This document shows positions 24,088-44,140 of a DNA stretch of 64,000 nt, piece after piece; the first letter of the stretch is position 1, and each line of letters begins with the position of its first letter. Below the pieces are notes generated by a model that saw only the letters and a list, made by a program, of their open reading frames with translations, made no database searches and had not been told where the DNA came from. The translations under genes were made by a program, and so were the position numbers. Location: assembly GCF_030549525.1 (NCBI RefSeq), contig NZ_CP130831.1, positions 2,443,501 to 2,507,500 of the forward strand. Direction: 5' to 3'. The stretch is from Stenotrophomonas sp. 704A1. GTDB lineage: Bacteria > Pseudomonadota > Gammaproteobacteria > Xanthomonadales > Xanthomonadaceae.

Positions 24088-24192
24088 CGGCACCAGTATG
24101 GCCAGTCCGGCCGCCGCGCGACAGCCGCCACCGGGGTGGTTGACCTTGCCGCATCCGGCGAATGGGGCCACTCCGCCGCATCAGCGGCGGCG

Positions 24193-25578: not shown

Positions 25579-25730
25579 CTGCCTGAGCGATCCGTTGATC
25601 AAGCGGTGCCCGGATCGGCACCCCGCGCGAAGAGTAGCAAAGCCACCGCTGCCACCCCACTGCGCCAAGTCGCCGCCGCCAGCGCGTCGGTTTTCCGCCA
25701 CGCACGCAGCCGGTCGCGCGCGGTGACAAC

Positions 25731-25787
25731 GGGCCGGGCACGGCCGTGCCCGGCCCCTCATGGCGCCGGCACGGACCGTGCCGGTGC
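25731..25787. terminator. tandem perfect palindromes downstream of the PHB depolymerase
   Basis: A 26-bp perfect palindrome at 25731-25756 (GGGCCGGGCACGG and its complement) is followed six bases later by a second, 12-bp-armed one at 25763-25787 with a single-base centre and one G-T mismatch. They share the GGCACGG core. They lie 30 bp past the depolymerase stop and may end that operon. Two linked GC palindromes also resemble REP-type intergenic repeats, but the GTAG tag of Stenotrophomonas SMAG repeats is absent. Confidence 0.5.
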
Positions 25788-25816: not shown

Positions 25817-26821
25817 TCAGCGCTGCTGATCCCTCAGGAACAACCAGGTGATCAGCGTGGCATCGGGGCCCTTCGGGTCGGTGAACGGCAATCCGGACTG
25901 GCTGCCGCTCCACGCATGCCCCATCCCCTGCACCACGTAGTGCTGCACCAGCGTGCGGCCACCGTAGGCGTAGGTATCGATGGTATAGGCGCGCCCGCCC
26001 GGCACCTGCGCGTGGACGGTAGCGGTCGGCACCGGCTTCACCGAGTCGTTGTCCAGGCCGTCGTCGGCCAGGTCGTTGGTCTGCAGGAACTGGCGCACCG
26101 CCTGCTGCCCGTTCACCGGATTGACCGTGGCATCTGCGCTGCCATGGAACACCAGCACCGGCAGCGGGCGTGGCGATGGCGATCCTGCACATTGCCAGGC
26201 CAGTCGCCCGTTGCTGTCCGGCGAATAGATGCTGCCGGCCAACAGTGCATAGGCACTGCCGGAGATCGTGGTGGCGCCCTTGTACATGCCGCCGGAATGG
26301 ATGGCGCCGGCGGCGAACACATCCGAATAACAGGCCAGCATGATCGCGGTCATCGCACCACCGGCGGAAATGCCGGTGACGTAGACGCGCTGCGGATCGA
26401 TACGGTAACCGGCTTTCACCTTGTCCACGATGCCGGCCAGCAGGGACGGCTCGCCGCTGTCGCGCGCCTGGTTGATCGGCAGCTGCCAGTTCCAGCAGCG
26501 TGCCGGGTTGGAGGTGACGTTCTGCCGTGGGTAGACCACGATGACACCTTCGCTGTCGGCCACCTCGTTGAAGCCCGAGGCCTCACCCATCAGGTTCGGC
26601 CCGGTCACGCAGCCGTGCAGCACCAGCAGCAGTGGCAGCGGCTGCGACCCGTCGTAGCCGGCCGGCACCCACACCTGGTACTCGCGGGCACCGGACAGAT
26701 TGCCGTACAGGCCGATGTCCCAATGCCCCGCAGGCCCGGCAGCCATTGCGCTGCCCGCCGCCGCCAGCCAGCCACACAGCGCCAGCCGCACCCCCTTGAA
26801 CGAATCGATTGCAGATGTCAT
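25817..26821 (-). CDS. exported PHB depolymerase-type esterase
   Basis: 334 residues. Signal peptide VRLALCGWLAAAGSAMAAG (cleavage near residue 28), then an alpha/beta-hydrolase catalytic domain of the esterase_phb/LpqC type: oxyanion segment LLLVLHGC, the lipase box GISAGGAM with nucleophile Ser152, an aspartate in FHGSADATVN and the histidine in GMGHAWSGS. There is no C-terminal substrate-binding domain, so it may act on oligomers or amorphous polymer. It lies 87 bp downstream of the 3-hydroxybutyrate permease and probably shares its promoter, fitting extracellular release of 3-hydroxybutyrate. Confidence 0.85.
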   Translation of the reverse strand: MTSAIDSFKGVRLALCGWLAAAGSAMAAGPAGHWDIGLYGNLSGAREYQVWVPAGYDGSQPLPLLLVLHGCVTGPNLMGEASGFNEVADSEGVIVVYPRQNVTSNPARCWNWQLPINQARDSGEPSLLAGIVDKVKAGYRIDPQRVYVTGISAGGAMTAIMLACYSDVFAAGAIHSGGMYKGATTISGSAYALLAGSIYSPDSNGRLAWQCAGSPSPRPLPVLVFHGSADATVNPVNGQQAVRQFLQTNDLADDGLDNDSVKPVPTATVHAQVPGGRAYTIDTYAYGGRTLVQHYVVQGMGHAWSGSQSGLPFTDPKGPDATLITWLFLRDQQR

Positions 26822-26908
26822 GACCCGATCCTCATGCATGGTTCGTGGATGAAGGAATTCCGGAACGCCTCGTGGACCCGCCGTCCCGAGGGTGCTGCGA
26901 CGCCGCCG

Positions 26909-28312
26909 TCAGACCCAGCCGGTGGCGTAGTACAGGCCGATCACCACGAACACCGCGGCGGTCTTGATGAGCGTGACCGCGAAGATGTCCTTGTAGGCCT
27001 GGCGGTGGGTGAGACCGGTCACCATCAGCAGGGTGATGACGGCGCCGTTGTGCGGCAGGCTGTCCATGCCGCCGGAGGCCATCGCCGCGACACGATGCAG
27101 CACCTCCATCGGAATGCCGGCGGCCTGCGCGTTGGCGATGAAGGTATCCGACATCGCGGCCAGGGCAATGCTCATGCCGCCGGACGCCGAGCCGGTCACC
27201 CCGGCCAGGCCGGTGACGGTGATCGCTTCATGCAGCAGCGGGTCCTCGATGGCACCCAGCGCGTTGGCCACCACCATGAAGCCCGGCAGGGCGGCGATGA
27301 CCGCACCGAAGCCGTACTCGGATGCGGTGTTCATCGCCGCCAGTACCGCTCCGTTGATGGCGCTGCGGGTGCCGTCGGCAAACTGGCTGAGCACCGGCCG
27401 CCAGGCCAGCACCAGCACGGAGAGGATGCCGACCAGCAGCGCACCGACCACGGCCCAGATGGCGCCGATCTTCGACACCTCCTGCACCACCGGCGCGGCA
27501 CCGCCCAGCACCGAGGGCACGAAGCTGTGGGCGCTGCCGTACCAGTGCGGCATGCCCAGGGTGAACAGCTTGTTGCAGGCGAACACCAGCAGCAACGGCA
27601 GCACCGCAATGCCGGCAGGCGCCACCCGCGCCCCGGTGAACGGCAACGGCTCGTTGACCAGCGTGGCCGGATCACCGTAGCCCTCGCCGCTGCGCACGGC
27701 CACGCGGCGGCGCCATTCCAGGTAGGCCATGCCCACGGCCAGCACGAAGACGCTGCCCAGCGTGCCCAGCACCGGTGCCGCCCAGGTATCGGTGCCGAAG
27801 AAGGCGGTGGGGATGATGTTCTGGATCTGCGGCGTGCCGGGCAAGGCATCCATGGTGAAGCTGAAGCCCCCTACCCCCAGCGTGGCCGGGATCAGGCGCT
27901 TGGGGATGTTGCTCTGGCGGAACATTTCGGCCGCGAACGGATACACCGCGAACACCACCACGAACAGCGAGACGCCGCCATAGGTGAGCAGGCCGGAGAC
28001 CAGCACGATCGACAGCATGGCCCGCTGTGGCCCGAACAGCCGGATGGCCGCACCGACGATGGAGCGCGAGAACCCGGACAGTTCGATCAGCTTGCCGAAC
28101 ACCGCGCCCAGCAGGAACACCGGGAAATAGAGCTTGAGGAAGCCCACCATGCGGTCCATGAACACCCCGGTGAACATCGGCGCCACCAGCGACGGATCGG
28201 TCAGCAGCACCGCGCCGAGCGCGGCGACGGGCGCGAACAGGATCACGCTGTAGCCCCGGTAGGCCACCAGGATGAGGAAGCCCAGCGCTGCGAGCACGAT
28301 CAGTAACGACAT
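26909..28312 (-). CDS. GntP-type permease, probable D-3-hydroxybutyrate transporter
   Basis: 467 residues from ATG 28312 (GGGAAG upstream), about 12-14 membrane helices. The GntP/Gnt-permease signatures include SGLLTYGGVSLFVVVFAVYPFA, a re-entrant ALPGTPQIQNIIPTAFFGT, VTGSASGGMSIAL and MASGGMDSLPHNGAVITLL. This subgroup is found next to 3-hydroxybutyrate catabolic genes (for example the permease beside bdhA in Pseudomonas), and here it is flanked by a PHB depolymerase and a 3-hydroxybutyrate oligomer hydrolase locus. Divergent from a TonB receptor, with a shared ACCTAGGT site at 28373-28380. Confidence 0.85.
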   Translation of the reverse strand: MSLLIVLAALGFLILVAYRGYSVILFAPVAALGAVLLTDPSLVAPMFTGVFMDRMVGFLKLYFPVFLLGAVFGKLIELSGFSRSIVGAAIRLFGPQRAMLSIVLVSGLLTYGGVSLFVVVFAVYPFAAEMFRQSNIPKRLIPATLGVGGFSFTMDALPGTPQIQNIIPTAFFGTDTWAAPVLGTLGSVFVLAVGMAYLEWRRRVAVRSGEGYGDPATLVNEPLPFTGARVAPAGIAVLPLLLVFACNKLFTLGMPHWYGSAHSFVPSVLGGAAPVVQEVSKIGAIWAVVGALLVGILSVLVLAWRPVLSQFADGTRSAINGAVLAAMNTASEYGFGAVIAALPGFMVVANALGAIEDPLLHEAITVTGLAGVTGSASGGMSIALAAMSDTFIANAQAAGIPMEVLHRVAAMASGGMDSLPHNGAVITLLMVTGLTHRQAYKDIFAVTLIKTAAVFVVIGLYYATGWV

Positions 28313-28370
28313 GGGGCGCTTCCCGGTGAGGACGCGGCCCAGTATCCGGATCTGGCCGTCGCTGCCGACT

Positions 28371-28382
28371 GGACCTAGGTCC
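28371..28382. promoter_or_regulatory. GGACCTAGGTCC palindrome, proposed CrbR-type activator site (copy 1)
   Basis: A perfect 12-bp palindrome lies in the permease/TonB-receptor divergent spacer. Counting from the ACCTAGGT core, TAGCCT follows on the plus strand at offset 36-41 and GATACT on the minus strand at offset 35-40; both could serve as -10 hexamers, and neither direction has a good -35. This centres the palindrome near -42 for both promoters, as for class II activators. A related site is at 36173-36184. Confidence 0.6.
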
Positions 28383-28470
28383 ACTCGCCGCTGTGGCGAC
28401 GCGCCGCTAGCCTAGGCTGCAGGGGTGGCAAAGGGCCATCTGCAACGGACATGCCCTGGGGGACGAGCGG

Positions 28471-30657
28471 ATGAAACGGAATGGCTTGAGTCTGATGATC
28501 GGCGCGCTGCTGGCTGCCGCGCCGGCACTGGCGCAGGATGCGCCGGCAGCGGGCAAGGCGGCCGCGGCCACCAACCTGGACAGCATCACGGTGACCGCGC
28601 GCAAGCGCGAGGAAACCCTGCAGGAAGTACCGGTAGCGGTGACCGCGTTCACCGCTGAGGCACTGGACAGGATGAACGTGCAGGACATCGGCGACCTGGA
28701 CGGCCAGGTACCGAACCTGACCATCTACGCGGCGCGCGGCGCCAGCAGTACGGTCACCGCCTACCTGCGCGGCATCGGCCAGTCCGACCCGACCTGGGGC
28801 GCCGACCCGGGCGTGGGCATCTACCTGGATGATGTCTACATCGCGCGGCCGCAGGGCGCACTGCTGGACGTGTTCGATGTCTCGCGCATCGAGGTGCTGC
28901 GGGGCCCGCAGGGCACGCTGTATGGCAAGAACACCATCGGCGGCGCCATCAAGTACATCTCACGCGGCCTGCCCACCCGGACCGAAGGTTTCGCCCAGAT
29001 CACCGTGGGCAACTACAACCAGCGGGACGCGAAGGCCGCCATCGGCGGACCGCTCGGCGGTGCCGACAGCGGGCTGCGCGCGCGGGTGGCGGTGGCCAGC
29101 ATGAATCGTGACGGCTTCGGTGAGAACACCTTCAACGGCCAGCCGGTCAGCGACAAGCAGATCAATGCAGCACGCCTGAACCTGGGTGCCTACGCGGGCG
29201 ACGATCTCGATGTGCAGTTCGCACTGGACTGGACCGATGACCAGTCCGGCATGCGCGGCTCGAAGATGCTGGCGCCCAACCCGTTCCTGCGTGCCTACCC
29301 GCCGATGGACAGCCGCTACGACATCCGCTCGGGCATGCGCAATCTCAACAACGTGGAGACCAAGGGGGCCTCGGCGACGGTGAACTGGCGTCCGAACGAG
29401 GATGTGGCCGTGAAGTACGTGCTGGCCAAGCGCGAGTCGGACAGCGAGGCGAACATCGACTTCGACACCACGCCGGTGAAGCTGGCCGATGTGGGCGGCA
29501 CCTATACCGACAACCAGGTGAGCAACGAGCTGCAGCTGAACTACGATGCGGGCGGCCGCGCCCGCGGCGTGGTCGGGCTCTACCACTTCAGTGGCGAGGC
29601 CGGCGGGCAGATCCAGAACAACTACTTCAGCGCGCAGTTCGCCGACAACCAGGGCAAGGTGCTGACCGACAGCGTAGCGCTGTATGCCGACTGGACCTTC
29701 GATCTGACCAGCAGGCTGAAGCTGGACGTGGGCGCGCGCTACACCGACGAGGACAAGCGCGCGATCGTGCTCAACCGGCTGTACGCCGACCCGGGGTTCA
29801 GCCGGCCGGTGGCGGTCACTGCGGACTTCGACAAGAAGACCCGTTTCCGCAACGTCTCGCCCAAGGTGTCGCTGGACTACCAGATCACCCCGGACATCAT
29901 GGTGTACGGGCTGGCCACGCGCGGCTTCAAGTCCGGCGGCTACAACATCCGCGCCAATGCGGTGGCCGTGCCGCGCTCGGCCGAACCGTTCGACGACGAG
30001 ACCGTGGACAGCTTCGAGATCGGCAGCAAGATGGCCTTCCTGGACCAGCGCCTGTTCCTGAACCTGTCGGCCTTCCACAACAAGTACAAGGACATCCAGC
30101 TGTCGGTGTTCACCGGCATCGACAGCAACGGGGATGGCGTGGATGATGCCTTCTTCGGTGACTTCACCAATGCTGGCGCCGGCACCATCAACGGCCTGGA
30201 AGTCGAGTACCAGTACCTGCCGACCCGGCACTGGCTGATTTCCGGCAACCTGGCCTGGCTGGATGCCACGTATGACGAGTACATGGACCGCGGCATCAAC
30301 GTCGCCGACCAGATGAAGTTCACCAACGCGCCGGATTTTTCCGGCGCCCTGAACGTGGAGTACCGTACCGACCTGGGCAACGGCGGCAACCTGTCGGCAC
30401 GGGTCGGCTACAGTTACCAGAGCGAAGTGTGGCCGACCACCGACCTGAGCCCGGTGATCCGCCAGGCCGGCTATGGCCTGGTCAATGCGGGCGTGATCTG
30501 GCGGCTGGATGAGGCCTGGACGTTCTCGCTGCAGGGCACCAACCTGGCCGACAAGGAATACCGCACCACCGGCTACAACATCCCGGCCGTCGGCACGCTG
30601 ATCGGCTTCTATGGCCCGCCGCGCCAGTACAGCCTCAGCGTCCGTTACGATTTCTAG
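28471..30657 (+). CDS. TonB-dependent receptor of the 3-hydroxybutyrate locus
   Basis: 728 residues. Signal peptide (about 1-22, ending ALAQD), then TonB box-like SITVTARKREETLQEVPVAV, the plug with VDVFDVSR-type IEVLRGPQGTLYGKNTIGGAIKYISRG, and a 22-strand barrel ending in the canonical LSVRYDF. It belongs to the large TonB receptor group with an EETLQ(E/D)VPV start that often imports carbohydrates or other nutrients rather than siderophores. It starts a co-directional series (hydrolase, MaoC, sensor kinase) and is divergent from the permease, so it may import oligomeric 3-hydroxybutyrate or other esters. GGGGGA lies upstream of the ATG. Confidence 0.9.
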   Translation: MKRNGLSLMIGALLAAAPALAQDAPAAGKAAAATNLDSITVTARKREETLQEVPVAVTAFTAEALDRMNVQDIGDLDGQVPNLTIYAARGASSTVTAYLRGIGQSDPTWGADPGVGIYLDDVYIARPQGALLDVFDVSRIEVLRGPQGTLYGKNTIGGAIKYISRGLPTRTEGFAQITVGNYNQRDAKAAIGGPLGGADSGLRARVAVASMNRDGFGENTFNGQPVSDKQINAARLNLGAYAGDDLDVQFALDWTDDQSGMRGSKMLAPNPFLRAYPPMDSRYDIRSGMRNLNNVETKGASATVNWRPNEDVAVKYVLAKRESDSEANIDFDTTPVKLADVGGTYTDNQVSNELQLNYDAGGRARGVVGLYHFSGEAGGQIQNNYFSAQFADNQGKVLTDSVALYADWTFDLTSRLKLDVGARYTDEDKRAIVLNRLYADPGFSRPVAVTADFDKKTRFRNVSPKVSLDYQITPDIMVYGLATRGFKSGGYNIRANAVAVPRSAEPFDDETVDSFEIGSKMAFLDQRLFLNLSAFHNKYKDIQLSVFTGIDSNGDGVDDAFFGDFTNAGAGTINGLEVEYQYLPTRHWLISGNLAWLDATYDEYMDRGINVADQMKFTNAPDFSGALNVEYRTDLGNGGNLSARVGYSYQSEVWPTTDLSPVIRQAGYGLVNAGVIWRLDEAWTFSLQGTNLADKEYRTTGYNIPAVGTLIGFYGPPRQYSLSVRYDF

Positions 30658-30689
30658 CGCGCCCGTCACGATTTCCAGGAAGCCTGTGC

Positions 30690-31568
30690 ATGACCGCGTC
30701 CTACCAAGATCTGTACTGGAACAGCAGCGATGGCCTGCGCCTGCACGCGCGGGATCATGCGCCGGCGGCCGCGGCGCCGGCGCGCGGCACCGTGGTCTGC
30801 ATTCCCGGGCTGACCCGCAACGGGGCCGACTTCGACGCCCTGGCCGGATCACTGACCGCGGCCGGCTGGCGGGTGATCGCGGTGGACCTGCGCGGACGCG
30901 CAGGCTCGGAACGTGCGCCGGATCCGTCCAGCTACAACCCGCGCACCTACGCCGACGACATGGTGGCGCTGCTGCGCTCGCAGCACATCGACAGTGCGGT
31001 GTTCATCGGCACATCGCTGGGCGTGCTGGTGATCATCACCCTCGCCTCGCGTGCCCCCTCACGGATTGCCGCCGCGGTGCTCAACGATGCCGGCCCCAAG
31101 GTGCCACGCCAGGCCCTGGCGCGCATCGGCAAGTACGCCGGCAAGCCGGTGCCGCCGATGGATATGGCGCAGGCCACGGCCTATGTGGCGGCGATCGGCA
31201 AGGCAGCGTTTCCGCGCTTCAGCAGCGACGACTGGCGGGAGATGGCGGCACGGTCCTTCCGCCGGCGCAGCGACGGCCTGCTGGAACTGGACTACGACCC
31301 GGCGGTCATCCGCACCACCCGGCCCTGGCTGCTGTGGCTGCTGCGCCCGCTGCTGTGGCGCGCAGTGCGGGGACTGACCGCGCGGGTCCCGGTGCTGGTG
31401 GTGCGCGGCGCGCTGTCGGACATCCTGCCGGCCGACGTCGCACGGCAGATGGCCGCGACATCGGACAGGGCCCGCCTGGTGGAAGTGCCGGACGTGGGCC
31501 ACGCGCCGATGCTGTCCGAACCCGAGGCGCGCGACGCGATCCTGTCGCTGCTGGAAGCGGCGCGATGA
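30690..31568 (+). CDS. alpha/beta hydrolase
   Basis: 292 residues, alpha/beta-hydrolase fold, no signal peptide. Oxyanion region VVCIPGLTRNGADF (about 32-45), nucleophile elbow FIGTSLGVLV (Ser near residue 109), acid in VVRGALSDIL and the histidine in DVGHAPML. It starts 32 bp after the TonB receptor and ends in an ATGA overlap with the MaoC gene. In this operon it is a good candidate for cytoplasmic or periplasmic-entry cleavage of 3-hydroxybutyrate oligomers or thioesters, but the family (haloperoxidase/proline-iminopeptidase-like) is broad and gives no substrate. Confidence 0.8.
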   Translation: MTASYQDLYWNSSDGLRLHARDHAPAAAAPARGTVVCIPGLTRNGADFDALAGSLTAAGWRVIAVDLRGRAGSERAPDPSSYNPRTYADDMVALLRSQHIDSAVFIGTSLGVLVIITLASRAPSRIAAAVLNDAGPKVPRQALARIGKYAGKPVPPMDMAQATAYVAAIGKAAFPRFSSDDWREMAARSFRRRSDGLLELDYDPAVIRTTRPWLLWLLRPLLWRAVRGLTARVPVLVVRGALSDILPADVARQMAATSDRARLVEVPDVGHAPMLSEPEARDAILSLLEAAR

Positions 31569-32050
31569 GCGCTGACGCATCGACCGCCCGGCTTCCGGCA
31601 GCGCTGCAGGCGCTGCAGCACTGGGCGGCCCGCGAGCGGCTGGGCCGGCACATACCGGTCACCCAATCGCGTATCGACCGGTTCGCCGATGCCACCGGCG
31701 ACCACAACTGGATCCACGTTGATCCGGCCCGTGCCCGCGCGGCACTACCGGGCGGGCAGACCATCGCGCACGGATTCCTGCTGCTGTCGCTCACCGTGGA
31801 AGACGATGTGGCCGCCCTGGCCGGGTTCCCCGGCATCGCCCACGTATTGAACTACGGCTTGAACAAGGTGCGCTTCCTGGCGCCGGTGCCGAGCGGTTCG
31901 GTGGTGCAGGTGCGCTCGCAGCTGCTGTCGCTGCAGCCGCGCCAGCCCGGACACTGGCTGCTGACCCAGCACAAGACCGTGCAGCGGGTGCCCGGCGGCG
32001 AGGCGGCACTGGTGGCCGAACAGCTGTCGCTGATCGTGATCGCCGGCTGA
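31565..32050 (+). CDS. MaoC-like (R)-specific enoyl-CoA hydratase family protein
   Basis: 161 residues, single hot-dog domain. The hydratase-2 motif D-(x)4-H is in FADATGDHNWIHVDPARA, followed by GQTIAHGFLLLSL, the standard MaoC signature; the whole sequence resembles the NodN/MaoC group. Members add water to trans-2-enoyl-CoA to give (R)-3-hydroxyacyl-CoA. Translationally coupled to the hydrolase (4-bp overlap). In a 3-hydroxybutyrate locus it could interconvert crotonyl-CoA and (R)-3-hydroxybutyryl-CoA. Confidence 0.85.
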   Translation: MSADASTARLPAALQALQHWAARERLGRHIPVTQSRIDRFADATGDHNWIHVDPARARAALPGGQTIAHGFLLLSLTVEDDVAALAGFPGIAHVLNYGLNKVRFLAPVPSGSVVQVRSQLLSLQPRQPGHWLLTQHKTVQRVPGGEAALVAEQLSLIVIAG

Positions 32051-32117
32051 CGCCCGGGTCTGGCGGCACCTGCCCGCGCTGCTGCACGCCACGCCGGGTT
32101 CTCTCTACACTGGAGCG

Positions 32118-35100
32118 ATGTTGACGCCTTCCATCGTCCTGTTCGCCTGCATTGCGTGGACCGTTCTGCTGTTTGGCGTGGCCCTGTGGGGGGAGCGCCA
32201 GGGGCACCGGCTGGCGCGGCCGTGGCCGGCCATCTACGCGCTGTCGCTGGGCGTGCACTGCACGGCCTGGACCTATTACGGGGCTGCCTCGCAGGGCGTG
32301 CAATGGGGCTTCCCGATTCCGCCGACACTGATCGGCATGGCACTGATCTTCGCCTTCGGCCTGCCCTTCCTGGCCCGGCTGGGGCGGCTGGCCAAGCAGC
32401 ACAACAGCGCCACCATCGCCGACCTGGTGGTGGCACGGCTGCGTACCGACCAGGGGCTGGGCATCACCATCACCCTGGTGGCCCTGTTCGGCATCGTTCC
32501 CTACATCGCACTGCAGCTCAAGGCAGTGAGCCAGGGGCTGGGCGCGCTGCTGGGTGATCAGTTCGCAGCAGCCGGCTGGCAGCTGGACATGTCGTTCTGG
32601 TTCGCGCTGACGATGGCGGCGTTCACCCTGCTGTTTGGTGCGCGCAAGGCGTCGGCCACCGAGCACAACCGCGGCATCGTGGTCGCGCTGGGCCTGGAGT
32701 CGGTCCTGAAGCTGGTGGCACTGCTGGCGATCGGGCTGTACGCCGCGCTGTCGGTGCAGCAGGCGGGCACGCCGCTGCTGCAGAAGATGACCCAGCTGCC
32801 GCCGCCAGCGGTCGTTCCGGACTACCTGACGATGGTCGCGCTGGGAGCGATCGCCGCCTTCACCCTGCCGCACCAGTTCCACGTGGGCGTGGTCGAACTG
32901 CGCCAGCCTTCGGACCTGAAGACGGCGCGCTGGCTGTTTCCGCTGTACCTGCTGCTGATCGGCCTGCCGTCGGTGCCGATGGCGCTGTACGGGGCGGCAC
33001 AGCTGCCGCCGGCGGTGTCGCCCGACCTGTACGTACTGGCCCTGCCGCAGGCCGGCGGCCACCATCTGCTGGCGCTGGTGGCCTACCTGGGCAGCCTGAG
33101 CGCGGCGACCGGCATGATGATCCTGTCCGGGCTGACCCTGTCGATCATGCTCGGCAACCACGGCTTCGGTTCGCGCCTTCTCGGCGGCATCGAGAGCGGA
33201 CGTCCCGGGGCCGACCTGCGCCCCCGCGTGCTGGCGTTCCGGCGTGCCGGCATCGTTGCGGTGTTCCTGATGTCATGGCTGTACAGCCGTGCGATGAGTG
33301 GCACCGAAGCACTCAGCGATTTCGGCCTGATGTCGTTCACCGCGCTCTCGCAGCTGGCGCCGGCCGTGCTGTTTGCCGTGTACCGGCCACGCACGCCGTC
33401 GCCGGCGATCATCGCCGGCATCGTGCTGGGATCGCTGGTGTGGCTGTGGCTGGTGCTGCTGCCGATGGTGGTGCCTGCGCCGCCGCTGTCGGCACACCCT
33501 GATCGGCTGCACTGGCTGGCGATGGTCTCGCTGCGCCCGCAGCCGGGCCATATCGCCATCAGCATGGGCGCCAGCCTGGCGGTGAATCTGGCCACCGTGC
33601 TGCTGGTGGCGCGTGCGGTGCGCCCGTCGCTGCCGCGGCAGCGCGATGCGGTGGCCGCCGCATCGCTGCGCAAGACCGCCGGCCGCTTCCTGGGCCCGGA
33701 ACGCGCGCGGCAGCTGATGGAGGGACATGCCGGGCAGCTGCTGGATGACGACCGGGTCACCGCCATCGAGCGTGAACTGACCGCGGTGGTCGGCGCCGGC
33801 ATGGCCCGGCTGCTGGTGGAAGCCGCCCGCGATGGCGGCGCCGCGCCGTTGGATGCGGTCACCCGCGCCGTCGGCGAGGCCACCCAGGTGCTGCGTTTCA
33901 ACCAGCGCCTGCTGGAAGCCGCACTGGAGAACATGAGCCAGGGCATCAGCGTGGTCGATGCGCAGCTGCAACTGGTGGCCTGGAACAGTCGTTACGCCGC
34001 GCTGTTCCGGTTTCCTCCGGAACTGCTGCAGGTCGGCCAGCCGGTCGCCCATCTCACCGCGTGGGCACTGGGCCAGCTGAAGATCGGCGACAGCCCGGGG
34101 GACAGTCCCGAGAAGGCCCTGCAGCGCCGCGTGGTGCACATGCGGCGCGGCAGCCCGCACCTGTCCGAGCGCATATTCCCGGACAACACCATCGTCGAGA
34201 TCCGCGGCAACCCGATGCCTGGCGGCGGCTACGTGGCGACCTTCACCGATGTCACCGCCTTCCGCCGCGCCGAGGATGCGCTCAAGCGCAGCAACGAGAC
34301 GCTGGAACGCCGCGTGCAGGACCGCACCGCACGGCTGGAACAGGCGGTGCAGGAAGCCGAGCGCGCCAACGTGGCCAAGACCCGCTTCCTGACCGCAGTC
34401 GGCCATGACCTGATCCAGCCGCTGCACGCCGCCCAGCTGCTGACCGACGCGATGTCGCAGCACATCGAATCGGACGTCCTGCACAGCTTCCTGCGCCAGA
34501 TCCGCGGTGCGCTGGATTCCACCGATGACCTGCTGTCAGGCCTGCTGGACATCTCGCGGCTGGAAGCCGGCGGACTGGTGGCCGACCCGCGCCCGTTCGC
34601 GCTGTCGAGCGTGCTGGAGCCGCTCGCGCAGGAGTTCGCGGTGCTGGCCGCCGCGCGTGGCCTGCGGTTCCGCTACGTGCGCACACAGGCGTGGGTGCAC
34701 AGCGATCCGCTGCTGCTGCGCCGGGTCCTGCAGAACTTCCTGGCCAATGCCATCCGCTACACCCGCCGGGGTGGCGTGCTGCTGGGCGTGCGCCGCTGCG
34801 GGCCGGCCCTGTCCATCGGCGTGCATGACAGCGGCCCGGGCATCGCCGCGGAACAGCAGGCGGTGGTGTTCGAGGAATTCCATCGCGGCGACCGCAGCAA
34901 TGGCCAGGGACTGGGGCTGGGCCTGGCCATCGCGCACCGCATCGCCGACCTGCTGCACGCACCGCTGCACCTGCGCAGCGCGCCGGACCGGGGCTCGACG
35001 TTCTCGATCCGCGTGGCCCGCGCGGCGCCACCGGCAACGCCGCGGCCGGAACCGGCCACGGCGGTCACCCGCGCCCTGCAGGGTACCCGGGTGCTGGTGG

Positions 35101-35453
35101 TCGACAACGATGCCGATGCACTGGCCGCCCTGCGCCAGCTGCTGCTGTCATGGGGCTGCGAGGTGACCGCGCTGCGCGATGCCGCCGCCCTCGATCCCTC
35201 GGCGCAGGCAGCCGCGTTATGGCTGTTCGACTATCACCTGGATGACGGCGATACCGGCGTCGCGCTGTGGACGCGGCTGGTGGCCCGGCATGGGCCGCGG
35301 CCGACGGTGATCCTCAGCGCCGACACCGGCGCCGGCACGCGCGAGGCGGTGCGCGCGGCCGGCCTGTCGTTGTTGAACAAGCCGTTCAAACCGCTGGCGC
35401 TGCGCTGGGCGATCAACCATCTGCTGGCCGCCTCGGGCACGGCCGCCCGGTGA
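32118..35453 (+). CDS. SSF-domain hybrid sensor histidine kinase, CrbS/MxtR-like
   Basis: 1111 residues. Residues about 1-500 are a 12-13-helix sodium:solute-symporter (SLC5-type) domain with FGARKASATEHNRGIVVALGLESVLKL. A STAC-like linker and a PAS domain follow (ENMSQGISVVDAQLQLVAWNSRY, about 610-720), then HisKA with the phospho-acceptor in VGHDLIQPLHAA (His763), HATPase boxes NFLANAIRYT, HDSGPGIA and GLGLGLAIAH, and a C-terminal receiver with the acceptor in FDYHLDDGD (Asp1038). This order is that of CrbS/MxtR, which senses acetate or short-chain-acid state and activates acs and PHB-related genes through CrbR/ErdR. It converges on the regulator gene 4 bp away. Confidence 0.88.
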   Translation: MLTPSIVLFACIAWTVLLFGVALWGERQGHRLARPWPAIYALSLGVHCTAWTYYGAASQGVQWGFPIPPTLIGMALIFAFGLPFLARLGRLAKQHNSATIADLVVARLRTDQGLGITITLVALFGIVPYIALQLKAVSQGLGALLGDQFAAAGWQLDMSFWFALTMAAFTLLFGARKASATEHNRGIVVALGLESVLKLVALLAIGLYAALSVQQAGTPLLQKMTQLPPPAVVPDYLTMVALGAIAAFTLPHQFHVGVVELRQPSDLKTARWLFPLYLLLIGLPSVPMALYGAAQLPPAVSPDLYVLALPQAGGHHLLALVAYLGSLSAATGMMILSGLTLSIMLGNHGFGSRLLGGIESGRPGADLRPRVLAFRRAGIVAVFLMSWLYSRAMSGTEALSDFGLMSFTALSQLAPAVLFAVYRPRTPSPAIIAGIVLGSLVWLWLVLLPMVVPAPPLSAHPDRLHWLAMVSLRPQPGHIAISMGASLAVNLATVLLVARAVRPSLPRQRDAVAAASLRKTAGRFLGPERARQLMEGHAGQLLDDDRVTAIERELTAVVGAGMARLLVEAARDGGAAPLDAVTRAVGEATQVLRFNQRLLEAALENMSQGISVVDAQLQLVAWNSRYAALFRFPPELLQVGQPVAHLTAWALGQLKIGDSPGDSPEKALQRRVVHMRRGSPHLSERIFPDNTIVEIRGNPMPGGGYVATFTDVTAFRRAEDALKRSNETLERRVQDRTARLEQAVQEAERANVAKTRFLTAVGHDLIQPLHAAQLLTDAMSQHIESDVLHSFLRQIRGALDSTDDLLSGLLDISRLEAGGLVADPRPFALSSVLEPLAQEFAVLAAARGLRFRYVRTQAWVHSDPLLLRRVLQNFLANAIRYTRRGGVLLGVRRCGPALSIGVHDSGPGIAAEQQAVVFEEFHRGDRSNGQGLGLGLAIAHRIADLLHAPLHLRSAPDRGSTFSIRVARAAPPATPRPEPATAVTRALQGTRVLVVDNDADALAALRQLLLSWGCEVTALRDAAALDPSAQAAALWLFDYHLDDGDTGVALWTRLVARHGPRPTVILSADTGAGTREAVRAAGLSLLNKPFKPLALRWAINHLLAASGTAAR

Positions 35454-35457
35454 GGGT

Positions 35458-36132
35458 TCAGGCGTCCTGCGCCGGTTCGATCTGCCGCGCAGGATCGGCC
35501 AGCCCCATCTCGTGCAGCACGCGGATGGCCTGCGCGCGGTTGCGCACGCCCAGCCGGCCCATGATGCGGGTCATGTGCGCTTTCACCGTCCGCAGCTGCA
35601 CACCCAGACGGTCGGCAATCTGCTTGTTGAGCAGGCCTTCGGCGACCAGGCTCAGCACCCGGTACTGGTGCGCGGACAGGCTGGCCAGGCGTGCGGCCAG
35701 ATCGGCATCCTTGCTGAAAGGCGCCACCCGTGCCACCGGTTCGCGCAGCAGCGCGGGAATCCAGCGTTCTCCCTCCAGCACGGTCTGCAATGCCGACTGC
35801 AGCTCGGCCAGCCCCGAACTCTTGGGCAGGTAGCCGGCCGCGCCGAGATCGATGGCGCGGCGGATCACCTGCGGCTCTTCATTGGCCGAGACGATGATGA
35901 TCGCCAGGCCTGGCTGCAGGGCGCGGATGGTGGCCAGCCCGGCCAACCCGTGGTTGCCCGGCATGTGCAGGTCCAGCAGCATCAGGTCGATCGGCTGGCG
36001 TTCCAGGGTTTCAAGCACGCTGTGCAGCGAATCGGCTTCGCTGATCTGCAGATCGGCCACCGCCTCTTCGGCCGCGCGATGCAGCGCGGCGCGGAACAAG
36101 GGGTGGTCATCGGCGATAAGCAGGGTTGACAT
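35458..36132 (-). CDS. LuxR/NarL-type response regulator, CrbR/ErdR-like
   Basis: 224 residues. The receiver domain begins TLLIADDHPLFR (acidic pair 8-9), with the phospho-acceptor in LMLLDLHMPG (Asp54), Ser/Thr in IIIVSANEE and Lys in YLPKSSG. A LuxR-type HTH (LSAHQYRVLSLVAEGLLNKQIADRLGVQLRTVKAHMTRIMGRLG) ends the protein. Next to the CrbS-like kinase it is the natural partner and the candidate binder of the ACCTAGGT sites. ATG at 36132 is preferred; a TTG two codons upstream is also in frame. Divergent from the oligomer hydrolase across 88 bp containing one such site. Confidence 0.88.
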   Translation of the reverse strand: MSTLLIADDHPLFRAALHRAAEEAVADLQISEADSLHSVLETLERQPIDLMLLDLHMPGNHGLAGLATIRALQPGLAIIIVSANEEPQVIRRAIDLGAAGYLPKSSGLAELQSALQTVLEGERWIPALLREPVARVAPFSKDADLAARLASLSAHQYRVLSLVAEGLLNKQIADRLGVQLRTVKAHMTRIMGRLGVRNRAQAIRVLHEMGLADPARQIEPAQDA

Positions 36133-36172
36133 GCGCAACCGAGATTAGCAAATCGCCGGCGCCCGGACAGGG

Positions 36173-36184
36173 GGACCTAGGTAC
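36173..36184. promoter_or_regulatory. GGACCTAGGTAC, proposed CrbR-type activator site (copy 2)
   Basis: Same ACCTAGGT core as at 28373-28380, here at 36175-36182, between the response regulator and the oligomer hydrolase. On the plus strand TAGGGT follows at offset 35-40 (36209-36214), which would put the transcription start at or near the ATG at 36221, a leaderless arrangement. On the minus strand TAATCT lies at offset 36-41, so the regulator could also be autoregulated. Confidence 0.6.
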
Positions 36185-36220
36185 GCTGGCGCGCCGCCGC
36201 GGGATGGCTAGGGTGGAGCC

Positions 36221-38074
36221 ATGAACAACCGTCCGCCGATGATCGTGCTGTCTGCCGCGTTGCCACTGCTGTGGGCCTGGGCGTCGAACGCCGATGCCGC
36301 CAGCGCCCTGCCCCGGCGCAGCGCCGACGCTGCCGTGTTCGAGCACTGGCGGGAAACCCGCCACGCCGGCAGCGATGATCTGCTCACCGCCGGCCTGGGC
36401 CTCGACGGCCTGCGCTCGAGCGCGGCGCCCGCCTTCGCCGACCCGGCCCGGCCGACGCCAGGCGAAGCCCGGCGGCGGGCGATCTGGAGCAGCTGGCGCG
36501 GCATTGCCGACCTGACCCCCGGCGGCGGTTTCGGCGATGTGTATGGCCATCTGCAGGCGGTCCCGGGCCGCGAGTACTCGGCGTATGCGTGGCTGCCGGG
36601 CGCGCGCCAACCGCATCGGGTGCTGGTGCAGGTACCCGACAGCTTCGATGCCGAGCGACGCTGCCTGGTCGTGGCCGCCGCGTCCGGATCGCGCGGGGTG
36701 TACGGCGCGATCGCGGTCGCCGGCAGCTGGGGCCTTGCCCGCGGCTGTGCCGTCGCCTACACCGACAAGGGGGCGGGCAGCGACTACTACGACCTGCACG
36801 CCAGGATCGGCGTCGGCGCCGACGGCACGCCTGCCGGCGACGGCGCCTTGGCGTTCATGCCCGAAGATGCGGCCGCCACGCAGGGCATCGCCTTCAAGCA
36901 CGCGCACTCGGGTGACAATCCCGAAGCCGACTGGGGCCGGCACCTGCAGCAGGCGCTGCAGTTCGGCCAGCAGGTGCTGGACCGCGCCTACCCTGCGGCC
37001 GGCCCGTTCACCGCAGCGCGCACGCGTGTACTGGGCGTGGGCGTGTCCAACGGCGGGGGTGCCGTGCTGCGCGCGGCGGAGATCGATGGCGACGGCTTCG
37101 ATGCGATGGTGGCCGGCGAACCCAACGTCTCGGTGCCCGGCGCGCCACCGCTGTACGACGCGGTGATCCTGGCCGCACTGCTGATGCCCTGTGCGCTGCT
37201 TGCGGTCGACGACCTGCCGCAACCGCCGCCGCAGACACAGGCCACGCCGGCCGGCGTGCAGCGCTGCGCCGCCCTGCATGCGGCCGGCCGGGTACAGGGG
37301 CAGGACACCACTGCACAGGCGCGCTCGGCGCGGCAGCAGCTGGTCGATGCCGGCTGGAGCGACCGCGTCCTCCGCGCCGGCGCGTTCGCGAGCGGGCTCG
37401 ACATGTGGCGCGCGATCGCGGTGACCTACGCCTCGGCCTATGGCCGCTATGGCGCGGGCCAGCACCCCTGCGGGTATCGCTTCGCAGCGGCGGCGGACCC
37501 CGCCGGTTCGGCCGGTTCGATGGCGCGCGCCCGCTGGTGGAGCGAAGGCAGCGGCATTCCACCCGGCCAGGACGTGTTGCTGGTGGAGGGCAGCAGCGCG
37601 TCCGCGCACGCGGATCCGCTGCGCGGCCTGGACTGCCTGCGCGCGCTCGGCGTGGCCGACAGCGCCGATGCACGGCGGGTCCGCGCCGGCATCGCCGAGG
37701 CGGCGGCACGGCCGCCCCGGCGCGGTCTGCCGATCGTGGTCATCCATGGCAGCGACGATGGGCTGGTGCCGATCCGCATGAGCAGCGACCGCTATGTGGC
37801 GCTGGCGCGCAACGCGGGCGCGCAGATCGCCTACTGGCGGGTGGACCATGCGCAGCATTTCGACGCGCTGCTGGCCTTCCCGGACTACCGCAGGCGCTAT
37901 GTACCGCTGCTGCCCTACCTGTTCGCAGCACTGGACCAGATCTGGGACCACCTTGAGGACCCGGCGCGTGCGCTGCCGCAGGACGCACTCATCCAGCCGA
38001 CGCCGCGTGCCGAGGCGCCACTGCGGCGCGGACAGCTTGCCCTTCCCGTGACCCCGGCCACGCCCGGCCGCTGA
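36221..38074 (+). CDS. exported D-3-hydroxybutyrate oligomer hydrolase
   Basis: 617 residues, within the size range of the 3HB-oligomer hydrolase family (about 600-700). Signal peptide IVLSAALPLLWAWASNADA (cleavage near residue 28). The family features seen are LLTAGLGLDGL near the N-terminus, VYTDKG-like VAYTDKGAGSDYYDL, and the nucleophile elbow GVSNGGGAVLRAAE with Ser276. Such enzymes cleave dimers and trimers released by PHB depolymerases to monomers. It is followed after 24 bp by the acyl-CoA ligase, and its promoter carries an ACCTAGGT site. The likely transcription start coincides with the ATG. Confidence 0.88.
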   Translation: MNNRPPMIVLSAALPLLWAWASNADAASALPRRSADAAVFEHWRETRHAGSDDLLTAGLGLDGLRSSAAPAFADPARPTPGEARRRAIWSSWRGIADLTPGGGFGDVYGHLQAVPGREYSAYAWLPGARQPHRVLVQVPDSFDAERRCLVVAAASGSRGVYGAIAVAGSWGLARGCAVAYTDKGAGSDYYDLHARIGVGADGTPAGDGALAFMPEDAAATQGIAFKHAHSGDNPEADWGRHLQQALQFGQQVLDRAYPAAGPFTAARTRVLGVGVSNGGGAVLRAAEIDGDGFDAMVAGEPNVSVPGAPPLYDAVILAALLMPCALLAVDDLPQPPPQTQATPAGVQRCAALHAAGRVQGQDTTAQARSARQQLVDAGWSDRVLRAGAFASGLDMWRAIAVTYASAYGRYGAGQHPCGYRFAAAADPAGSAGSMARARWWSEGSGIPPGQDVLLVEGSSASAHADPLRGLDCLRALGVADSADARRVRAGIAEAAARPPRRGLPIVVIHGSDDGLVPIRMSSDRYVALARNAGAQIAYWRVDHAQHFDALLAFPDYRRRYVPLLPYLFAALDQIWDHLEDPARALPQDALIQPTPRAEAPLRRGQLALPVTPATPGR

Positions 38075-38098
38075 CACACGCCCCACCAGGACCCCACG

Positions 38099-39754
38099 AT
38101 GACGCCCGACGCCGCCGCACACACTTCTTCTGCCGCCCCCTGCCCGCTGCTGATCAAGCAGCTGCTGCAGACCCCGATGGCGGTGCATCCGGACCAGCAG
38201 ATCGTCTGCGGTGACACGGTGCGCTTCGACTACCGCACGCTGCAGCAGCGCATTGGCCAACTCGCCGGCCTGCTGACCGCGCTCGGGGTCACGCACGGCG
38301 ACACCGTGGCGGTGATGGACTGGGACAGCAACCGCTATCTCGAGAGCTACTTCGCGGTGCCGATGATCGGTGCGGTGCTGATGATGGTGAACATCCGCCT
38401 GGCGCCGGAGCAGATCGCCTACACGCTGAACCACAGCGGGGCGCGGGTGGTGCTGGCCAACCGCGATTTCCTGCCGCTGCTGCAGGGCATCGACGAGCAG
38501 CTGCCGGACCTGTACACGCGCGTGCTGCTGGACGATGTGGGCGGCCCGCTGCCGGACGGTTTCGTCACCGAATACGAGACCGGCCTGCGGGGCGCCACCG
38601 CGATCCGGACGTTCCCCGACTTCGACGAGAACAGCCGCGCCACGGTGTTCTATACCACCGGCACCACCGGCCTGCCCAAGGGGGTCTACTTCAGTCATCG
38701 GCAGCTGGTGCTGCATTCGCTGGCTGCGATGGCCGCGCTGGGCAGCGCGCCGCAGCAGGGGCGGCTGCACCGCAACGACGTGTACATGCCGATCACCCCG
38801 ATGTTCCACGTGCATGCCTGGGGCGTGCCGTACGTGGCCACCCTGCTGGGCATCAAGCAGGTGTACCCGGGGCGCTATCTGCCCGCAAGCCTGCTGGGAT
38901 TGATCGCCCGCGAGAACGTGACCTTCTCGCACTGCGTGCCGACCCTCCTGCACATGCTGCTGGAGCACCCCGCCGCCGCGCAGACCGACCTGCGCGGCTG
39001 GAAGGTGATCATCGGCGGTGCGGCCCTGCCGCAGGCGCTGGCGCAGCGCGCACTGGCCCGCGGCATCGATATCTTCGGTGGCTACGGCATGTCCGAGACC
39101 TGCCCGCTGCTCACCCTGGCCCAGATCGACGCCGATGCCCTGGACGATCCGGACGAGGCCCTGGCGCTGCGCACCAAGGCCGGCCGCCCGGTGCCGCTGG
39201 TCGAGCTGCGCATCGTCGACGAGCACATGAACGATGTTGCCCATGATGGCGTCGCCACCGGCGAAGTAGTGGTGCGCGCACCGTGGCTCACCCCCGGCTA
39301 TCTGCACGACCCGGATGCATCGGCGGCGCTGTGGGCCGGCGGCTACCTGCATACCGGCGACATCGGCACGATCGACGCGCGTGGCTACCTGCGGGTGACA
39401 GACCGCATCAAGGATGTGATCAAGACCGGCGGCGAGTGGATCTCCTCGCTCGCGCTGGAAGACATCATCGCGCTGCATCCGGCGGTGAACGAGGTCGCGG
39501 TGATCGGCATCAGCGATGCGAAATGGGGCGAGCGGCCGCTGCCGCTGGTGGTGCTGCACGACGGCAGTGACGTGACCGAAGCCGAGATCATCGAGCTGGT
39601 GGCGGCCCGCAGCCGCAACGGCGACATCTCGCGCTACGCGATCCCCGAGCGCGTGCGCTTCGTGGCGTCGATCGAGCGCACCAGCGTGGGCAAGATCAAC
39701 AAGAAGAAGCTGCGCAGCCTGCATGACCGGGATACGGCCGCCGGCGTCCGCTGA
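38099..39754 (+). CDS. AlkK-like fatty acid-CoA ligase
   Basis: 551 residues, ANL adenylate-forming family. P-loop FYTTGTTGLPKGVYFSH (near residue 185), GGYGMSETCPL (A5), YLHTGDIGTIDARGYLRVTDRIKDVIKTGGEWIS (A7/A8 hinge) and the lysine motif GKINKKKLR at the C-terminus. Closest in style to medium-chain AlkK/long-chain fatty acyl-CoA ligases. Second gene after the oligomer hydrolase, so it probably activates the released 3-hydroxybutyrate (or other short/medium acids) to CoA thioesters for the MaoC hydratase and beta-oxidation. AGGA lies eight bases before the ATG. Confidence 0.9.
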   Translation: MTPDAAAHTSSAAPCPLLIKQLLQTPMAVHPDQQIVCGDTVRFDYRTLQQRIGQLAGLLTALGVTHGDTVAVMDWDSNRYLESYFAVPMIGAVLMMVNIRLAPEQIAYTLNHSGARVVLANRDFLPLLQGIDEQLPDLYTRVLLDDVGGPLPDGFVTEYETGLRGATAIRTFPDFDENSRATVFYTTGTTGLPKGVYFSHRQLVLHSLAAMAALGSAPQQGRLHRNDVYMPITPMFHVHAWGVPYVATLLGIKQVYPGRYLPASLLGLIARENVTFSHCVPTLLHMLLEHPAAAQTDLRGWKVIIGGAALPQALAQRALARGIDIFGGYGMSETCPLLTLAQIDADALDDPDEALALRTKAGRPVPLVELRIVDEHMNDVAHDGVATGEVVVRAPWLTPGYLHDPDASAALWAGGYLHTGDIGTIDARGYLRVTDRIKDVIKTGGEWISSLALEDIIALHPAVNEVAVIGISDAKWGERPLPLVVLHDGSDVTEAEIIELVAARSRNGDISRYAIPERVRFVASIERTSVGKINKKKLRSLHDRDTAAGVR

Positions 39755-41080: not shown

Positions 41081-41102
41081 CGCCCGCTTCAACCGGCGGG
41101 CG
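41081..41102. terminator. bidirectional hairpin between convergent genes
   Basis: CGCCCGC (41081-41087) and GCGGGCG (41096-41102) pair around an 8-base loop. The hairpin lies 11 bp after the transpeptidase stop and includes the stop codon of the convergent glycosyltransferase, so it can serve both transcripts. Confidence 0.5.
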
Positions 41103-41772
41103 CGGCACATGGCAGGGACAGCGGTGCCGCCAGTGCCGCCAGGTGATCGGCGAAGCCACCTTGAGCCCGGCCGCGCAGGCGCATGCTGGTCAGCACCGCC
41201 GGCGCACCCGCCCATCGGATCCGCGCGCCGGCCGCATCGAGCCGCTGCACCAGGTCCACGTCTTCCCCGCACGGCAGATCACGAAACCCGCCCACCGCGT
41301 GATAGGCCCCGGCGCTGACCCCGAAGTTCGCACCGTGAACCCGGCCATGCCCATCGCCCCAGCGTTCGTTGCGGCGGAAGCGCTGCTGCAGCCGTGCGCC
41401 GGCACGATCCACCGCAGTGATATCGACGACGCCGCAGAAGGCATCGGCCCCGGCGCTGCGCTGCGCGGCAAGCCAGTGCGCGGGCACGATGCTGTCGGCG
41501 TCGGTGCTTGCCAGCCAGTGCGCTCCCTGTCCCAGCAGGTAGGCGGCAGCGGCGGCCCTGGCCGCGCCCACGCAGCGCGCATGCAGATGCAGGACATCTA
41601 CACCTCGGCGCGCACACAGCCGCGCGGTGTGGTCAGTGCAGGCATCCAGCGCCACCACGATCCGTACCGGCTCGCCCTGCAGCCGCGGGTGCGCCGCCGC
41701 CACCTGCAGCGATCGCAGGCAGGCGTCGATGGCCCCGGCTTCGTTGTGTGCCGGCACCAGGACGCCGATCAC
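41089..41772 (-). CDS. GT2-family glycosyltransferase
   Basis: 227 residues, small GT-A fold. The nucleotide-binding start IGVLVPAHNEAGAIDACLRSL, the VVALDACTDHTARLC segment and the metal motif in WLASTDADSIVPAHWL (DAD) identify a family 2 inverting transferase; there are no membrane helices. The GTG start at 41772 overlaps the methyltransferase stop (GTGA), so it is the last gene of a four-gene operon. It lacks the processive QxxRW region, so it probably adds a single sugar. Donor and acceptor are unknown. Confidence 0.85.
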   Translation of the reverse strand: MIGVLVPAHNEAGAIDACLRSLQVAAAHPRLQGEPVRIVVALDACTDHTARLCARRGVDVLHLHARCVGAARAAAAAYLLGQGAHWLASTDADSIVPAHWLAAQRSAGADAFCGVVDITAVDRAGARLQQRFRRNERWGDGHGRVHGANFGVSAGAYHAVGGFRDLPCGEDVDLVQRLDAAGARIRWAGAPAVLTSMRLRGRAQGGFADHLAALAAPLSLPCAAPAG

Positions 41773-44034: not shown

Positions 44035-44140
44035 GGCCGGGTCGTGGGAAGAGACAGCACCGACGTTAGTGCGGTGCCGATCACTTCCCTGTCTTCTGCG
44101 CGTGGCGGGCGCATGAAGCCGCACCCGTGCCGCCGGCACG

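Follow-up and report, generated by a model that had tools for sequence, protein, structure and literature searches.

A 64,000-nucleotide stretch of the Stenotrophomonas sp. 704A1 genome (assembly GCF_030549525.1, contig NZ_CP130831.1, positions 2,443,501 to 2,507,500; hereafter the window) contains, between its positions 25817 and 39754, nine intact open frames with predicted roles in the use of poly-3-hydroxybutyrate (PHB) and its 3-hydroxybutyrate (3HB) oligomers, among them a two-component system. The genome is a 4.69 Mb single contig from Stenotrophomonas, and the window permease is 92% identical to its counterpart in S. rhizophila GN_RF2.1. All nine genes, from depolymerase to ligase, lie with their frames open where a sequence-only reading of this DNA had placed them. 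Family assignments were drawn from Pfam, NCBIfam, and PDB-sequence searches, and export signals are signal peptides judged by eye only.

25817..26839, minus strand: secreted type-1 short-chain-length polyhydroxyalkanoate (PHA) depolymerase (PhaZ); NF050058, 283.8 bits (cut-off 150); PDB 8daj_A, 5.4e-76
26909..28312, minus strand: inner-membrane permease, "GntP family" by NCBI name; 68–92% identity to 27 aligned relatives
28471..30657, plus strand: TonB-dependent outer-membrane receptor; PF00593, PF07715
30690..31568, plus strand: alpha/beta hydrolase (GTSLG), probably cytoplasmic; PF00561; PDB 3bwx_A, 8.4e-53
31565..32050, plus strand: MaoC-type (R)-enoyl-CoA hydratase-like protein; PF01575; PDB 2c2i_A (Rv0130), 3.3e-26
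32118..35453, plus strand: SLC5 transceptor hybrid histidine kinase (SLC5 - linker/STAC region - PAS - HisKA - HATPase - REC); Pfam and structure 10ED
35458..36132, minus strand: LuxR/NarL-type response regulator, ErdR-like (REC-GerE); PF00072, PF00196; best NCBIfam model RR_TF_ErdR
36221..38074, plus strand: exported 3HB-oligomer hydrolase (GVSNG); PF10605, 4.5e-124; signal peptide by eye
38099..39754, plus strand: acyl-CoA ligase (PRK06187-type); PF00501; NF004837, 622 bits (cut-off 476); PDB 8hsy_A, 5e-189

The depolymerase, permease, and regulator occupy the minus strand, the last convergent with the kinase, while the plus strand carries a tightly packed run of TonB receptor, hydrolase, MaoC protein, and kinase (gaps of 32, -4, and 67 bp) as well as the oligomer hydrolase and ligase (gap of 24 bp). 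The permease start was corrected to the ATG at 28312, giving 467 residues as in homologue P0121, and the regulator probably starts at the ATG at 36132, which is favoured over the TTG at 36138. The depolymerase has a lipase box (GISAG, Ser158) and a signal peptide judged by eye, and family searches found no separate substrate-binding domain in it. The oligomer hydrolase matches PF10605 over nearly its full length (415.7 bits, cut-off 27; profile positions 28–654 of 688), and a PDB search with it found nothing. The NCBIfam and PDB matches of the ligase place it in the long-chain acyl type, and the MaoC protein shares in alignment with Rv0130 an Asp/His stretch (dhnwihvdp vs dhqwihvdp) that we take to hold the catalytic residues.

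The permease, which probably imports 3HB, returned no useful Pfam, NCBIfam, or PDB-sequence match (the lone Pfam match listed up to E = 10 is a phage domain, E = 0.2) and takes its "GntP family" label solely from the NCBI naming of homologues. It adjoins a 3HB dehydrogenase in three loci (L180, L127, L133). Permeases about 68–74% identical to it occur in Zoogloea, Cupriavidus, Collimonas, Thiolinea, and a Helicobacter (L156–L180), mostly with no similar kinase in the fetched DNA, and the Helicobacter record (L180) is one of those with the dehydrogenase alongside; the protein is a highly conserved transporter without a Pfam model match. The fetched flanks of betaproteobacterial and other distant permeases contained no such kinase.

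Three probes (the oligomer hydrolase, the membrane part of the kinase, and the permease) were searched in the same 297 family genomes, which are related to one another. The oligomer hydrolase was present in 213, the kinase membrane part in 274, and the permease in 212 (189 strong). Oligomer hydrolase and permease occurred together in 204 genomes, were both missing from 76, and stood singly in 17 (182, 77, and 38, respectively, with strong permeases alone); given the relatedness of the genomes, no weight is placed on the Fisher value for this co-occurrence. Kinase matches formed roughly two tiers, a strong one that, for matches with listed coordinates, mostly neighbours the permease or oligomer hydrolase, and another at about 1e-70 to 1e-90. 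Neighbourhoods were read at 80 named loci and in 37 stretches of other genomes, and the permease, TonB receptor, kinase, regulator, and oligomer hydrolase recur together across the Lysobacteraceae and Rhodanobacter, usually in the order permease (-), TonB receptor (+), kinase (+), regulator (-), often dehydrogenase (-), and oligomer hydrolase (+). Two genomes (G221, G233) hold the regulator/dehydrogenase/hydrolase block apart from the permease/TonB/kinase block. Among 106 fetched permease-bearing loci, a count that includes contig-end cuts and repeated genomes (e.g., L105/L185, L150/L212), 73 also have the kinase and the TonB receptor. The TonB receptor and the kinase have a type-2 PHA depolymerase between them in some genera (301 bits in L121, against the NF050059 cut-off of 280); 17 loci match the type-2 probe, two of them (L102, L103) solely through a short match inside the type-1 enzyme. 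Five named Stenotrophomonas loci (L101–L105) keep the window order from depolymerase through oligomer hydrolase, with the ligase past the fetched edge and visible in L185. The sequence-only reading had proposed that a PHB and 3HB-oligomer scavenging locus is built around a two-component system with an SSF-domain kinase, and had named missing synteny in relatives as one ground for refuting it; with the kinase now placed in the SLC5 type, this part of it is supported by the family assignments and by the conservation described.

The kinase is predicted to signal through His763 and Asp1038, both assigned by motif, and its C-terminal REC domain is weak (27.3 bits, Pfam cut-off 30.2). Its membrane part, earlier called an SSF domain, has no Pfam SSF match but matches 10ED (4e-52 as a single sequence, 9.7e-87 as a profile), the CbrA SLC5-STAC structure deposited by the study accessible in part as PMC13022988. 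In the profile alignment the match reaches 10ED residue 549, which in the numbering of the accessible text of that study is some 30 residues past the start of STAC. The same genome encodes a second SLC5 kinase, near a LuxR-type regulator and acs, and the two pairs are 37–38% (kinase) and 42% (regulator) identical; against RR_TF_ErdR the locus regulator scores 186.9 bits and the acs-linked regulator 243.7 bits, both below the cut-off of 390. In a tree of 67 kinases, built by a quick method with a midpoint root and long branches flagged, the acs-linked kinase and one from G158 fall apart from the 65 locus kinases, within which the Stenotrophomonas kinases group with the L189 and L190 kinases in a single clade. 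The lysine aligned with the Na2-site lysine of CbrA (K198) is retained in all 67 aligned kinases. Relative to the two outgroup kinases, positions 243 and 67, aligned with CbrA pocket residues, differ in 65/65 locus kinases each and position 71 in 63/65; H47 is a Tyr in 13/65. Two records are probably misbinned contigs: L160, labelled as a Chitinophagaceae metagenome-assembled genome, groups with Rhodanobacter kinases on a short branch, and P0056, labelled Streptomyces, contains the Stenotrophomonas kinase.

The pair might be the acetate system CrbS/CrbR itself, standing beside PHB genes by chance, as its domain layout, its ErdR-like regulator, and the convergent gene order also described for Sinorhizobium fredii (accessible part of PMC9100948) would allow. 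This is very improbable and largely refuted by the second pair near acs, the separate clade of the locus kinases, the acs promoter score of 1.2 bits with the locus motif (described below), and a placement conserved across the family. By sequence comparison the locus pair, earlier labelled "CrbS/CrbR-type", is a paralogue of CrbS/CrbR, separate from the acs-linked pair, and identity with CrbS/CrbR was rejected. The accompanying statement that CrbSR controls some PHB genes found no support ("hydroxybutyr" occurs 0 times in the accessible portions of PMC5715377 and PMC9927547).

A point absent from the sequence-only reading is that one palindrome occurs in both divergent promoters of the locus (GGACCTAGGTCC and GGACCTAGGTAC), giving two putative operators.

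28369..28384, no strand: operator 1, CTGGACCTAGGTCCAC, between permease and TonB receptor
36171..36186, no strand: operator 2, GGGGACCTAGGTACGC, between regulator and oligomer hydrolase

Operator 1 is identical in 7/7 Stenotrophomonas-type promoter rows, window included. Because two one-mismatch matches are not rare in the shuffled 64-kb window (17/100 shuffles), the whole genome was scanned with GGACCTAGGTMC, which was found at exactly two places in 4.69 Mb, both locus promoters (reversed control, 0). The looser KKACCTAGGTMM marked both locus promoters in 6/6 tested Stenotrophomonas genomes that have the locus kinase (G277 showing one additional place) and was not found in two tested Stenotrophomonas genomes without that kinase. 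The reversed-pattern control for the looser form gave 2 to 6 places per genome, so that two matches per genome are no excess by count, and the weight of the result lies in 12 of the 13 places falling on the two locus promoters. Across ten other genomes, 14/16 pattern matches were at locus promoters, and the strict pattern recovered 14/20 expected promoters. The extra place in G277 (C1:3158326-3158337, L236) is a third GTACCTAGGTAC, and the gene that starts about 18 bp downstream of it appears by eye to encode a MerR-type regulator; this site was seen only in G277 among the eight genomes.

The Stenotrophomonas operator GACCTAGGTC was rejected as the family-wide form, since outside the Stenotrophomonas rows its matches were near the shuffled level, and the family motif was obtained by a de novo search; scanning for strict AC-N4-GT palindromes also proved inadequate (no candidate in 35/80 rows, many permease/TonB sites missed). 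With Stenotrophomonas-type rows left out, the de novo search returned a palindrome both for permease/TonB promoters (n = 72; log-likelihood 716 vs 27–28 shuffled) and for promoters between the regulator or dehydrogenase and the oligomer hydrolase (n = 47; 498 vs 29–33 shuffled), and after masking the next-best motif was far weaker (1100 vs 409 and 775 vs 303). The relatives' sites read ATTGTCCGAAGGTACAAT and GTGGTACCAAAGTACGAT, which are taken as one motif. In other genera, 73/73 permease/TonB rows score at least 17.4 bits and 45/48 oligomer-hydrolase rows at least 22.9 bits (row L130, with unknown bases, was left out of the scoring). In 2.23 Mb of loci, sites scoring 18 bits or more number 121 in divergent promoters of locus genes and five elsewhere; all five are close to where a TonB, permease, regulator, or dehydrogenase gene begins. 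The acs promoter of the same genome carries TTCGACCATGGTCTAA and scores 1.2 bits.

The distance from operator to predicted -10 box is nearly constant.

28341..28346, minus strand: predicted -10 box GATACT of the permease promoter; distance to the centre of operator 1, 30 bp; weak consensus match
28408..28413, plus strand: predicted -10 box TAGCCT of the TonB-receptor promoter; TAnnnT at offset 31–32
36142..36147, minus strand: predicted -10 box TAATCT of the regulator promoter; position read from the offset analysis
36209..36214, plus strand: predicted -10 box TAGGGT of the oligomer-hydrolase promoter; TAnnnT at offset 30–31

With the window counted in, 98% of 51 rows have a TAnnnT box beginning 30–31 bp from the operator centre on the oligomer-hydrolase side, and 93% of 79 rows have one beginning 31–32 bp away on the TonB-receptor side; no other offset on these two sides exceeds 6%. 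A -10 box 30–32 bp from the operator centre would put that centre at about -43/-44, which matches the CrbR site at acs in P. fluorescens, an inverted repeat from -52 to -36 according to the accessible part of PMC5715377. The -10 box towards the oligomer hydrolase ends 6 bp before its ATG, which suggests a transcript that is leaderless or nearly so.

The identity of the binding protein can be approached through the Stenotrophomonas-type loci, where the regulator recognition helix reads VQLRTVKAHMTRIM instead of the standard VQERTVKAHLSAIF and the operator is altered too. In L189 and L190 the kinases belong to the Stenotrophomonas clade, while the operators, and the regulators beside their genomes' oligomer hydrolases, are standard. 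G029, whose Stenotrophomonas-type and standard loci are separated by about 30 kb, has at each a regulator and an operator of its own type. Operator type appears to track the recognition helix and not the kinase, which points to the neighbouring regulator as the binder. Among the 106 permease loci, 73 have a kinase of at least 40% identity, of which 66 carry the site, 6 have the Stenotrophomonas form, and one (L106) has the site upstream of the TonB receptor instead; 25 of the 33 loci without such a kinase have neither a TonB neighbour nor the site.

The sequence-only reading had noted that no 3HB dehydrogenase lies in the window, and 0 of the genome's 29 matches to the PHB_DH model fall inside it. 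Its further step, that the route may therefore run through the CoA ligase, does not follow, because a dehydrogenase exists elsewhere in the genome and one adjoins the oligomer hydrolase in 25/56 oligomer-hydrolase promoter rows. The notion that the genome lacks the enzyme was rejected on the strength of one SDR above the PHB_DH cut-off (C1:2075351-2076115), about 0.37 Mb from the window, around which no other PHB gene was recognised by eye among the listed open reading frames. All five tested adjoining dehydrogenases match 3HB-dehydrogenase models best (three above the PHB_DH cut-off, two above that of NF009093). The genome also has a CoA-transferase gene pair. No match to the PHA synthase (PhaC) N-domain was found anywhere in the genome, so the PHB used is probably made by others.

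The ligase and MaoC protein look like true members of the locus, because both the window ligase and an AMP-ligase in L189 and L190 stand by an operator; the latter is 29–31% identical to the window ligase and divergent to hydrolase-MaoC-kinase, with an operator-like site between. Since ligase and MaoC protein, and not a dehydrogenase, sit in operator-bearing units, and since no dehydrogenase adjoins the oligomer hydrolase in any of the seven Stenotrophomonas-type rows that contain this hydrolase, it is plausible that a ligase/MaoC route operates in Stenotrophomonas alongside the unlinked dehydrogenase.

Taken together, we regard it as likely that the locus is a self-contained regulon for scavenging foreign PHB and its oligomers, run by a dedicated SLC5 transceptor. 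Gene content, synteny, paralogy, the palindromes, the -10 spacing, and the co-divergence of operator and regulator are read from sequence, and the ligand, binding, activation, flux direction, transcription units, and the ligase/MaoC step are inferred. The depolymerase would cut the polymer outside the cell, the TonB receptor would move oligomers to the periplasm, the exported oligomer hydrolase would release 3HB there, and the permease would carry it inward. The kinase, a CrbS paralogue with an altered pocket, may sense 3HB or a close relative and phosphorylate its LuxR-type partner, which would bind one palindrome per divergent promoter at about -43 and activate four putative transcription units (permease-depolymerase; TonB-hydrolase-MaoC-kinase; regulator; oligomer hydrolase-ligase). 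Inside the cell, (R)-3HB would be oxidised by a dehydrogenase, encoded within the locus in many relatives and elsewhere in the window genome, or, alternatively in Stenotrophomonas, the ligase could activate (R)-3HB and the MaoC protein dehydrate it to crotonyl-CoA.

A number of observations weigh against this regulon reading. The motif matrices were trained on the same promoters in which they were counted; three oligomer-hydrolase promoters score low (L145, 12.7; L158, 11.0; L161, 4.4 bits), and the Stenotrophomonas form of the permease/TonB site scores only 0.7 bits with the permease/TonB matrix, so that this form is tied to the family motif by place, core, and spacing and not by score. Towards the regulator or dehydrogenase, TAnnnT stands at 30–31 bp in only about half of 51 rows, and towards the permease the -10 match, at about the same distance, is weak (GA-ACT). 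Neither of the two strict-pattern matches lies at the distant dehydrogenase gene. The permease, earlier called GntP-type in agreement with the NCBI name of its homologues, matches no family model among those tested, and the pocket argument for the kinase ligand is a comparative one.

The operator/regulator change is a single evolutionary event, and 8 of the 33 kinase-less permease loci carry the site, seven beside a TonB receptor plus L118, although four of the eight end within 400 bp of the TonB receptor at a contig end and L118 ends about 95 bp from the permease. A clean rule of no kinase, no site was accordingly withdrawn: it is the permease/TonB pair, and not strictly the kinase, that the site accompanies. 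A different regulator might bind the palindrome, with the two-component pair controlling other genes; palindromes suit many regulators, and L108, L115, and L125 carry permease/TonB and the site without the locus kinase in the 6–7.5 kb fetched beyond the TonB receptor. We consider this improbable given the absence of the site from the two tested Stenotrophomonas genomes lacking the locus kinase, the match of core and spacing to the published CrbR site (accessible part of PMC5715377), and the co-divergence of the site with the locus regulator helix.

The remaining points against the regulon as stated concern its substrate. Four Stenotrophomonas genomes (G071, G124, G179, G277) lack the permease and oligomer hydrolase genome-wide and keep the rest in the same order, including the kinase, regulator, and both operators; their loci (L181–L184) amount to a natural double loss. 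Because these two genes are gone and the rest is kept, the substrate may differ there, and the system may serve another one. The same regulon logic could apply to a broader substrate in Stenotrophomonas, namely other (R)-3-hydroxyalkanoate or fatty-acyl esters. After release outside and import by the TonB receptor, these would be cleaved by the cytoplasmic hydrolase before activation by the ligase and dehydration by the MaoC protein. The ordered depolymerase, TonB receptor, hydrolase, MaoC protein, kinase, regulator, and ligase of the four genomes would fit this, as would the long-chain acyl type of the ligase and the further AMP-ligase behind its own operator in L189 and L190. It is nonetheless unlikely, since the window lineage has the permease and oligomer hydrolase beside the same operators and 3HB-specific genes predominate at the locus in other genera. 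A further-reaching version of the 3HB regulon, which we hold tentatively and at just short of an even chance, is that an additional specificity class of SLC5 transceptor kinases, sensing 3HB or a 3HB oligomer, arose by CrbS duplication in the Lysobacterales and, with a private operator, forms a closed self-amplifying regulon, one Stenotrophomonas lineage having been redirected to another ester after loss of the permease and oligomer hydrolase.

The locus is flanked on one side (22762-25761) by genes for a ClC-type chloride channel and an EAL-domain protein and on the other (41089-44139) by minus-strand genes for a glycosyltransferase, a methyltransferase, a PIG-L deacetylase, and a 348-residue protein without a Pfam match.

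Among the literature matches listed, no title or abstract concerned the locus, its regulator, or its operator, most subscription papers being outside coverage, and the sensing of extracellular PHB, a storage polymer and bioplastic, seems little explored in searchable papers. The locus offers a defined candidate sensor, regulator, and operator common to many soil and water bacteria, and its natural variants (two types of operator, and loci in which two genes are missing) make ligand, binding, and route directly testable. If the proposal is true, 3HB would be a new substrate for SLC5 transceptors, those named in the accessible parts of the sources being acetate, histidine (glucose in Azotobacter), and pyruvate.

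The system is conserved and better organised than the sequence-only reading saw, and it is a variant of SLC5 transceptor regulation. It shares the depolymerase, 3HB-oligomer hydrolase, and 3HB dehydrogenase of the extracellular PHB degradation pathway, to which it adds a TonB receptor, a permease, a dedicated kinase and regulator, and shared palindromes. The CbrA/CbrB system of Pseudomonas, whose regulator belongs to a class different from that of the locus regulator, likewise has an SLC5 transceptor (SLC5-STAC in CbrA), with a Na2-site lysine (K196) that aligns with K198. CbrA senses histidine, and its pocket residues Y51, F71, Y75, and F248, as given in the accessible part of PMC13022988, align by eye with H47, I67, L71, and G243 of the locus kinase. 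RpuS/RpuR of Sinorhizobium fredii, which responds to pyruvate, is an SLC5/STAC two-component system linked to the transporter of the sensed substrate, an arrangement that the SLC5-type pair and putative 3HB permease of the locus would resemble; it differs in its imperfect direct-repeat site and its pyruvate permease MctP, and the accessible part of PMC9100948 mentions no polymer-degradation genes. Closest is CrbS/CrbR (MxtR/ErdR) of Pseudomonas, Vibrio, and Sinorhizobium, which has the same SLC5-fused PAS hybrid kinase and LuxR-type regulator, convergent genes in S. fredii (PMC9100948, accessible part), and an inverted-repeat site just upstream of the promoter (PMC5715377, accessible part). 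Unlike it, the locus pair lies inside a 3HB-polymer locus in a genome with a separate acs-linked pair, and its pattern matches are nearly confined to the locus; the operator centre is CTAG, in contrast to CATG at the CrbR site, and the acs promoter sequence TTCGACCATGGTCTAA resembles the sites printed in the accessible part of PMC5715377.

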